Source: Bacteroides sp.
Lineage (GTDB): Bacteria; Bacteroidota; Bacteroidia; Bacteroidales; Bacteroidaceae
Assembly: GCA_017556595.1 (NCBI GenBank)
Contig: JAFYML010000378.1
Coordinates: 1 to 5,196, forward strand
Length of the DNA: 5,196 bases
Reading direction: 5' to 3'
How positions within the stretch are numbered: the stretch's first letter is position 1; each line of letters starts with the position of its first letter. Below the pieces are notes generated by a model. That model saw only the letters and a list, made by a program, of their open reading frames with translations. It made no database searches and was not told where the DNA came from. The translations under genes were made by a program, and so were the position numbers. Positions 4,424 through 5,196 of the stretch are shown here, in pieces.

Positions 4424-4458
4424 AAAATGCTGATTACCGTTTGGTGATCAGCATTTTT
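4424..4458 (+). terminator. Intrinsic terminator of the thrS-infC-rpmI-rplT operon
   Basis: AAATGCTGAT (4425-4434) pairs with ATCAGCATTT (4447-4456). The stem extends inward through T4435-G4446, A4436-T4445, C4437-G4444 and C4438-G4443 to a GTTT loop (4439-4442), 14 bp in all. Five T residues (4454-4458) and CTTATTT follow. A strong rho-independent signal correctly placed after rplT. Confidence 0.93.
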
Positions 4459-4538: not shown

Positions 4539-4577
4539 TTGCATAGTTGTGAAAAGATGAAAATAATAGATGTCTTA

Positions 4578-4609
4578 TTTGCTTATCTCAAATAAATATC
4601 CTATCTTTG
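4578..4609 (+). promoter_or_regulatory. Strong Bacteroidota-type promoter of the small RNA
   Basis: TTTG at 4578-4581 is followed after 20 nt by TATCTTTG at 4602-4609, a full match to the Bacteroidota housekeeping promoter TTTG...TAnnTTTG with proper spacing. The DNA just upstream (4551-4570) is A-rich, like an UP element. The expected transcription start is about 4613-4617. This promoter lies downstream of the ATG at 4570, which argues against a protein gene starting there. Confidence 0.85.
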
Positions 4610-4613
4610 TCAT

Positions 4614-4838
4614 AACAAAAATAAGAAAAGTAGCCGCATTGATTGGATCGGGAAACTCATCAATTATATCTGAATACCGAGACAAGCTTGCGTACTCAAT
4701 GGCGGGCCACGCCCTTCGGGGTAACCTTGAGTCGGTGGATTACAAAGAGTACGGGCACTCAAATCCTGTTATTCGGAGTTTCATCACATCATCGGTGCGG
4801 CTTAATATAAAATGATTCACTTAAGTGAATCATTTTTT
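4614..4838 (+). ncRNA. Structured small RNA, Bacteroidales-1 motif type (possible 6S RNA)
   Basis: About 225 nt between a strong promoter and a strong terminator. Pairings found by eye: 4633-4643 with 4791-4801 (11 bp, two G-U); 4652-4658 with 4776-4782 (7 bp, perfect); 4671-4676 with 4770-4775; 4677-4680 with 4732-4735. Hairpin A is 4695-4702 with 4725-4731 (U4700 bulged), capped by a C(UUCG)G tetraloop at 4714-4719. Hairpin B is 4737-4741 with 4762-4766 and 4747-4750 with 4757-4760. The Bacteroidales-1 RNA is known to lie often downstream of the L20 gene with its own promoter and terminator, as here. A long closing stem, an unpaired 5' strand (4659-4670) and a branched tip resemble 6S RNA, which binds RNA polymerase. 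I recall that Bacteroidales-1 has been linked to 6S, but cannot confirm it here. The 5' end is estimated from the promoter. Confidence 0.85.
4809..4838. terminator. Bidirectional terminator shared by the small RNA and mltG
   Basis: Positions 4809-4836 are a perfect 28-bp palindrome, centred on CACTTAAGTG: a 12-bp stem (4809-4820 with 4825-4836) and a TTAA loop. On the + strand it ends in six T residues (4833-4838) and ends the small RNA. On the - strand the stem is followed by TTTTATATT and serves the converging mltG, whose stop codon lies at its edge. Confidence 0.92.
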
Positions 4839-5196
4839 ATTTATATATCTTTCGCTTATTTAAAGCATCCCAATATTTGCGTGCATTGCGATTATGCTCG
4901 CTTAATGTGCTAGCAAAGTTGTGTGTACCTGAGAAATCTTCTTTTGCACACATATATAGATAATTGTGTTTGCTGAAGTTTAGTACTGCATCTATACCTT
5001 CTGGTGTAGGGATACGTATTGGTCCAGGAGGAAGCCCAGCTATCTTATATGTGTTGTATGGTGAATCTATTTCAAGGTGCTTATTTGTGATTCTGCGCAA
5101 AGTAAAATCTTGCCATGCATACTTTACTGTAGGATCGGCTTGTAGCGGCATGCCTCTTTTTAGGCGGTTAATATATAAACCTGCTACCATTGGCTT
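4837..5196 (-). CDS. mltG: Endolytic murein transglycosylase MltG, C-terminal part (5' end outside window)
   Basis: MltG (YceG-like family) is an inner-membrane lytic transglycosylase that cuts nascent peptidoglycan strands and is thought to end their elongation. The frame stays open to the right edge, leaving 119 residues of the C-terminal catalytic region. Family landmarks are clear: MVAGLYINRLKRGMPLQADP (visible residues 3-22), the SPYNTYK segment, AGLPPGPIRIPTPEGIDAVL, then YLYMCAKEDFSGTHNFASTL and a closing EHNRNARKYW. The N-terminal membrane anchor, the LysM-like part and the catalytic glutamate lie beyond the window and cannot be checked. Many members end soon after the EHN...W segment, so the C-terminus (NKRKIYK) looks natural. 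The TAA stop is 4839-4837, in the T-tract of the shared terminator. It converges on the small RNA gene and is not part of the ribosomal operon. Confidence 0.97.
   Translation of the reverse strand, partial: KPMVAGLYINRLKRGMPLQADPTVKYAWQDFTLRRITNKHLEIDSPYNTYKIAGLPPGPIRIPTPEGIDAVLNFSKHNYLYMCAKEDFSGTHNFASTLSEHNRNARKYWDALNKRKIYK

Follow-up and report, generated by a model that had tools for sequence, protein, structure and literature searches.

The window analysed here is the whole stretch of 5,196 nucleotides from a Bacteroides sp. contig, and it carries a structured RNA gene downstream of the genes for initiation factor IF-3 and ribosomal protein L20 (rplT), with a gene of the YceG/MltG family converging on it from the other side (Table 1). 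The rplT gene shares 95–96% identity with records that carry the name Bacteroides sp. or Bacteroidales. A cmscan of the window gave a full-length match to Bacteroidales-1 RNA (RF01693) at 4632–4808 of the forward strand, with 187.1 bits against a gathering threshold of 60 and an E-value of 4.9e-34, which makes the RNA a member of this family, as the sequence-only reading had proposed from the letters. That reading also suggested a 6S RNA and named both covariance models as a check; in the window the canonical 6S model (RF00013) remained without a match up to an E-value of 5, and the 6S-Flavo model (RF01685) overlaps the same place below its gathering cut-off, with 24.9 bits against 85. The match to RF01693 is the only one in the window's genome, the completeness of which is 70.6%. 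An 81-codon open frame overlaps the RNA (4570–4815, forward strand) and has no support as a gene. Sub-threshold Rfam matches to TB9Cs1H1, CRISPR-DR33 and ZFAT-AS1_3 in the window were taken as chance; that to CRISPR-DR33 sits on the hairpin after rplT.

Table 1. Features of the window around the Bacteroidales-1 RNA, in order of position
Feature	Position	Strand	Basis or remark
rplT, ribosomal protein L20	4047..4397	+	Upstream of the RNA; Pfam PF00453, E 6.6e-44
Terminator-like hairpin after rplT	4424..4457	+	15 pairs and T-run; pattern match only
TTTG, predicted -33 promoter element	4578..4581	+	Sequence; sigma-ABfr consensus TTTG / TAnnTTTG
TATCTTTG, predicted -7 promoter element	4602..4609	+	Sequence; start predicted at about 4614-4616
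Bacteroidales-1 RNA, likely 6S RNA	4632..4808	+	RF01693, 187.1 bits
P1 outer closing helix, 5' arm	4632..4643	+	Pairs with 4791-4802; covariation
P2 helix, 5' arm GAAACUC, likely product-RNA template	4652..4658	+	Near-invariant in Bacteroidales-1; two-sided changes in the wider family
Central bubble, 5' strand	4659..4678	+	Consensus fold of the alignment
Apical stem with side hairpins	4679..4760	+	Covariation; Rfam structure
UUCG hairpin CCC-UUCG-GGG	4712..4721	+	In the sequence
Central bubble, 3' strand	4761..4775	+	Consensus fold of the alignment
P2 helix, 3' arm GAGUUUC	4776..4782	+	Pairs with 4652-4658
P1 outer closing helix, 3' arm	4791..4802	+	Pairs with 4632-4643; covariation
Terminator of the RNA, palindromic, between the converging genes	4809..4836	+	12 pairs and T-run; fold
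Converging YceG/MltG family gene, 5' part beyond the window	4837..5190	-	Pfam PF02618, E 4e-43

Single-sequence folding was set aside as evidence, because it is weak and equal on both strands (z -2.33 with 2 of 200 shuffles as good on the forward strand, z -3.17 with 0 of 200 on the reverse), and the case for a structured RNA is carried instead by the covariance match and by covariation. For the latter, alignment A1 was assembled from 30 loci, the best-scoring of the 68 Bacteroidales genomes matched by RF01693, with the window among them. RNAalifold with ribosum scores folds A1 into a single rod composed of the outer helix P1, the helix P2, a bubble and the apical stem; without ribosum scores the middle part comes out different and weaker. 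Within the rod 95.6% of cells pair and two-sided changes occur at 23 of 43 pairs, a result equalled by none of 500 shuffles, with one of the five covariation measures matched by a single shuffle of the 500, and sliding the partner by 1–3 columns leaves pairing at only 40–49%. The compensating changes among relatives that the sequence-only reading had looked to are therefore present across the 30 sequences, and in the outer helix of A1 they affect 9 of 10 pairs. Rfam's structure for RF01693 comprises the apical stem only; P1 and P2, which make the rod 6S-like, are added here. The inner six pairs of P2 are without covariation in Bacteroidales-1, because the helix is almost invariant there, and it varies on both sides in the wider set (for example AAACUC/GAGUUU versus AAACUUC/GGAGGUUU).

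In 27 further loci outside model building, two-sided changes occur at 37 of the 43 pairs (0 of 500 shuffles); the larger alignments A3 and A4 were fitted to the model and so lean towards its structure. A closing stem, a central bubble and an apical stem, the arrangement by which a 6S RNA is recognised, are thus kept by covariation. As to the individual elements, the perfect 7-bp helix, the UUCG-capped hairpin and the palindromic terminator described in the sequence-only reading are all found as it had them, the closing helix is present with 12 contiguous pairs (some of them G–U) in place of its 11, and the second side hairpin is weak in the window sequence when seen in the RF01693 match alignment. 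A candidate UCC/GGA release hairpin in the 3' bubble strand was rejected: it shows one compensatory change, and 45 of 500 shuffles do as well.

Homology to an accepted 6S family was found through a covariance model, R1, built from the Bacteroidales-1 alignment A1 alone. Its target set consisted of 31 loci for the 30 genomes of the phylum sample with RF01685 matches, namely 28 of the 30 RF01685 loci and L004–L006, which RF01693 had contributed, with scores under its own cut-off, from RF01685's place in three of the genomes; L033 and L034 were excluded as duplicates, and L006 and L015 are the same gene. R1 matches every one of the 31 loci, and so all 30 genomes, with E-values from 9e-11 to 2.4e-4, and RF01685 itself places 12 of the 30 genomes above its cut-off and 18 below. 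One locus, L036, is doubtful (38 bits with RF01685, 27.5 with R1), and it was included in A3 all the same. Applied to the 247 genomes of the phylum sample, R1 matches 22, among them three of family f9 that neither Rfam family finds. In 80 named rplT loci (387 kb, some incomplete) it gave 14 matches, all on the forward strand downstream of rplT, and nothing beyond these at E up to 1.

The joint model R2 was built from A3, which holds 59 sequences of all types; its training sequences came from 20 of the 203 order genomes that it matches. It finds the same 14 of the 80 rplT loci as R1, and of 247 order genomes it matches these 203 and misses 44, where RF01693 gives 68 matches (50 above cut-off) and RF01685 gives 25 (none above cut-off). 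Twenty-three of these 25 coincide with the place given by R2, the weak RF01685 matches in G470 and G483 being unreported by it. The corresponding figures for the 247 genomes of the phylum sample are 42 for R2, 6 for RF01693 and 30 for RF01685; the genome of L036 (G037), not reported by R2, is the only one of those 30 outside R2's 42. In both searches there is one R2 match per matched genome at E up to 0.001. Twenty-seven R2 loci that RF01693 does not list, 20 of them in the order and 7 outside, are the further loci used above for covariation; all have E-values of 1.4e-5 or below in their stretch, and 19 of them, together with L151, show no Rfam family above gathering.

In the 20 kb around E. 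coli ssrS, R2 gave no match. As RF00013 likewise gives no match in the window, it is shape and gene order, and no sequence score, that connect the window's RNA with 6S RNAs at large. RF00013 does match in 2 of 118 order genomes, and for both loci contamination is suspected, though unproven. One of them (L232) adjoins ZapA and L20 genes by Pfam, lies on a different contig from that genome's R2 match and has an L20 that reads unlike the window's; the other (L233) is near a sugar-nucleotide-transferase-like gene, named by eye.

A gene for ZapA stands directly before the RNA in 9 of the 9 order loci scanned with Pfam (L204, L206, L207, L209, L212, L214, L215, L217 and L219) and before it in all four Flavo-type loci scanned (L004, L007, L010 and L018) and in both weak phylum matches scanned (L227 and L228); with Pfam and tblastn taken together, ZapA is identified at 19 of the 20 loci of the order and at 26 of the 29 of Flavo type. 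On the downstream side of the RNA lies RNase Y (rny), in all 20 order loci, with a median gap of 33.5 nt, and in all 29 Flavo-type loci; at 11 further loci (L224–L230, L036, L151, L157 and L160) tblastn did not find it. At L227 a YmdB-like gene (429–1271), not RNase Y, lies downstream of the weak RNA match beside ZapA, and L224 adjoins an ion-channel gene. Linkage to zapA is a usual, not a defining, feature of 6S RNA, and E. coli ssrS lies directly after zapA; the window's RNA sits on the rplT side, and it is in sister lineages that the linkage is found. The 6S-like layout put forward by the sequence-only reading is therefore supported by a rod kept through compensating changes, outer helix included, by homology to 6S-Flavo and by homologues that adjoin zapA as ssrS does.

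All 22 Bacteroidales-1 genomes tested, chosen from the 68 with RF01693 matches, retain zapA, and RNase Y starts 56–214 nt after it. No R2 match lies between the two genes in any of the 22; one match elsewhere in these loci, with an E-value of 1.4, was taken as chance. It is likely from this gene order that the 6S gene left the zapA–rny site in an ancestor of the Bacteroidales-1 lineages and settled elsewhere, the direction of the move being read from the gene order of outgroups. By eye, a short hairpin with a T-run behind it (GCACTGC ... GTAGTGC, for example) can be seen in many of the empty spacers (L239–L260); it may be a plain terminator or a remnant of the 6S outer helix.

The two arrangements also differ in what precedes the RNA. 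In the window, TTTG and TATCTTTG are 20 nt apart and the latter ends 22 nt before the outer helix, in keeping with the sigma-ABfr consensus TTTG / TAnnTTTG (PMC7366714). Among the best 30 of the 68 Bacteroidales-1 loci, window included, TAnnTTTG occurs within 70 nt upstream in 27, against 1.8 expected from shuffles, although in 3 of the 27 it lies 41–61 nt away, beyond the usual range. The promoter motif recognised in the sequence-only reading is thus present and above chance, and together with the terminator-like hairpin between rplT and the RNA, which would separate transcription of rplT from that of the RNA, it favours the independent transcription claimed there. A scan of the window for promoters of the sigma-70 type, the wrong type for this phylum, found 2 against 1.9 expected and was discarded.

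In the 80 nt that precede the RNA at loci linked to zapA or rny, TAnnTTTG is absent from all 20 order loci and present at 1 of the 29 Flavo-type loci, and GTTCTTT is present at 16 of the 20 and 21 of the 29, where shuffles predict 0.08 and 0.10; for the best 30 of the 68 Bacteroidales-1 RNAs the same comparison gives GTTCTTT in 1 and TAnnTTTG in 27 (0.3 and 2.2 expected). Of the 49 linked loci, 37 have the slightly wider GYTCTTT no more than 40 nt upstream of the RNA, mostly at 18–30 nt; at the background rates in the remaining 129 kb of these loci, 0.16 would be expected from the same strand (13 occurrences) and about 0.9 from the other strand (71). This element fits boxA, the consensus of which in gamma-proteobacteria is GYTCTTTAANA (PMC5725501); that full, gamma-proteobacterial consensus is itself present in 10 of the 49 loci. 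A related but looser pattern, G[CT]TC[TA]T[TA], is seen, as a raw count, in 11 of the 15 rRNA leaders with 300 nt at hand (from 17 loci inspected among 25). Upstream of E. coli ssrS there is no GYTCTTT within 200 nt. The three f9 loci (L151, L157 and L160) have TATATTTG 4–6 nt before the outer helix and an RNA away from RNase Y, perhaps through an independent second move with gain of a promoter.

An account without a move, in which horizontal transfer brought in the Bacteroidales-1 copy as a replacement for a lost zapA-linked 6S RNA, has in its favour that the empty zapA–rny spacer holds the boxA-like motif in 0 of 22 Bacteroidales-1 genomes and that the neighbour genes of the RNA differ among these genomes. 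We nevertheless judge it unlikely, since none of the 247 order genomes gives R2 a second match at E up to 0.001, and since both types score on one model. Relocation remains our preferred reading, and with it we offer, as a tentative idea that falls somewhat short of an even chance, an account of how expression changed. The ancestral Bacteroidota 6S RNA would have lain in a zapA–6S–rny operon and been expressed in the manner of rRNA, with boxA, mostly 18–30 nt ahead, loading a Nus antitermination complex and thereby sparing the untranslated RNA from Rho. In the Bacteroidales-1 lineages the gene would have come out of the operon, dropped boxA and gained a sigma-ABfr promoter. If so, the decoy would be transcribed by the very sigma factor that it titrates, which would create a direct feedback loop. 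Within the part of the surveyed literature that names both terms, no title has boxA control of 6S RNA as its subject.

The central bubble offers a candidate for the site of polymerase binding. Across the 59 sequences of A3 the unpaired C4661 is the same in all, as are the unpaired A4762 and U4767, and the likewise unpaired G4768 is the same in 58; the last three keep the spacing of A2, T7 and G8 in TAnnTTTG. The 3' bubble strand at 4761–4768, AAAUCCUG, fits WAnnCnUG, a motif noticed post hoc, after inspection, which occurs in the 3' bubble of 56 of 59 sequences in A3 and 15 of 27 in A4 (shuffle means 1.4 and 0.6) and is absent from the other 12 bubbles of A4. Exact TAnnTTTG occurs in the 3' bubble of 0 of 86 sequences and was rejected; only the weaker WAnnCnUG stands. 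The geometry of E. coli 6S RNA is the model for a predicted start of product RNA opposite C4661. In that RNA the -10-like region is on the 3' bubble strand, and product RNAs unwind the helix beside the bubble (PMC8876501).

The RNA is predicted to act as an open-promoter decoy that binds RNA polymerase carrying the main sigma factor, with WAnnCnUG on the 3' bubble strand presumably standing in for the sigma-ABfr -7 box. The polymerase would be held until nutrients return and would then begin at about C4661, likely the template for the product-RNA start on this comparison, and copy the 5' strand of the bubble together with P2; the predicted product RNA is 5'-GAUGAGUUUCCCGAUCC, and its synthesis would open P2 and so release the enzyme. 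A structured small RNA of another kind could share the rod shape, for instance one that, like Ms1, is structurally related to 6S RNA yet binds core RNA polymerase without sigma (PMC9130861, PMC11077062), and shape alone cannot separate holoenzyme from core binding. With this precedent on its side, such a reading is still very improbable for the window's RNA in view of the 6S-Flavo homology, the ZapA genes that adjoin homologues, the conserved -7-like element in the 3' bubble and the pRNAs reported in B. thetaiotaomicron (PMC7366714). Hardly credible at all is an element that belongs to the rplT region or to the converging mltG and acts in cis (a ribosomal-protein leader or trailer, or an antisense RNA): a question mark stands at cis-regulation for the motif in the table of Weinberg 2010, and rplT lies within 1.5 kb and always on the same strand in 13 of the best 30 of 68 loci, window included, but the RNA comes after the terminator-like hairpin of rplT, has its own promoter motif, and elsewhere follows dnaJ, a DUF4251 gene or a glycosyltransferase gene. 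A position described beforehand as typically downstream of L20 thus applies to those 13 loci, the window among them, and fails in the remainder.

We therefore hold it very probable that the Bacteroidales-1 RNA of the window is the 6S RNA of its host, a predicted decoy of the main-sigma RNA polymerase, its gene having likely moved from a zapA–rny locus. The core of this finding is already known, since Rfam's text for RF01693 reads '6S-Bacteroidales RNA suggested' and a Bacteroides 6S RNA is in print: dRNA-seq gave a 6S RNA and two pRNA classes in B. thetaiotaomicron (PMC7366714). In Flavobacterium psychrophilum, 6S RNA is among the known RNAs detected (PMC9723704). The present analysis adds the outer-helix covariation, the recovery of the RNA by R1 in all 30 genomes with 6S-Flavo matches, the joint model R2, the zapA–rny gene order with its empty site and the contrast between boxA-like element and promoter. 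In the parts of the literature surveyed, which do not include Wehner 2014, the most relevant paper, no mention was encountered of the joint family, the empty site or the change from boxA to a promoter. With these additions a suggested 6S identity becomes a well-supported homology, and Bacteroidales-1 and 6S-Flavo look like parts of one 6S family, split and often missed by current Rfam models. A concrete motif in the bubble and a predicted product RNA are offered for study in organisms whose main sigma factor is unusual. The results point to a housekeeping RNA gene that changed both its address and its mode of expression within one order, and they raise boxA control of 6S RNA as a testable idea which, if true, would tie a polymerase-throttling RNA to the machinery that drives rRNA synthesis.

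Among known systems, the Ms1 RNA of actinobacteria has the 6S-like shape in common with the window's RNA and differs in binding core polymerase without sigma, as reported in the sources cited above. The 6S RNA of B. thetaiotaomicron is equated with Bacteroidales-1 here by assumption. With RF01693 itself the window's RNA agrees in full-length match and in its place downstream of rplT. The 6S-Flavo RNAs (RF01685), homologous to the window's RNA although it is no member of their model, have the same rod and similar letters in P2 and bubble, but their genes stand before RNase Y, mostly with a boxA-like element, whereas the window's gene stands after rplT with a TAnnTTTG promoter. Canonical 6S RNA (RF00013) is not linked by score, its model missing the window and R2 missing ssrS, and the window's RNA is not filed under it; a closing stem, a central bubble, an apical stem and a length of about 180 nt are nevertheless common to the window's RNA, E. 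coli ssrS and B. subtilis 6S-1, and ssrS follows zapA in E. coli just as the homologues of the window's RNA do in its sister lineages.
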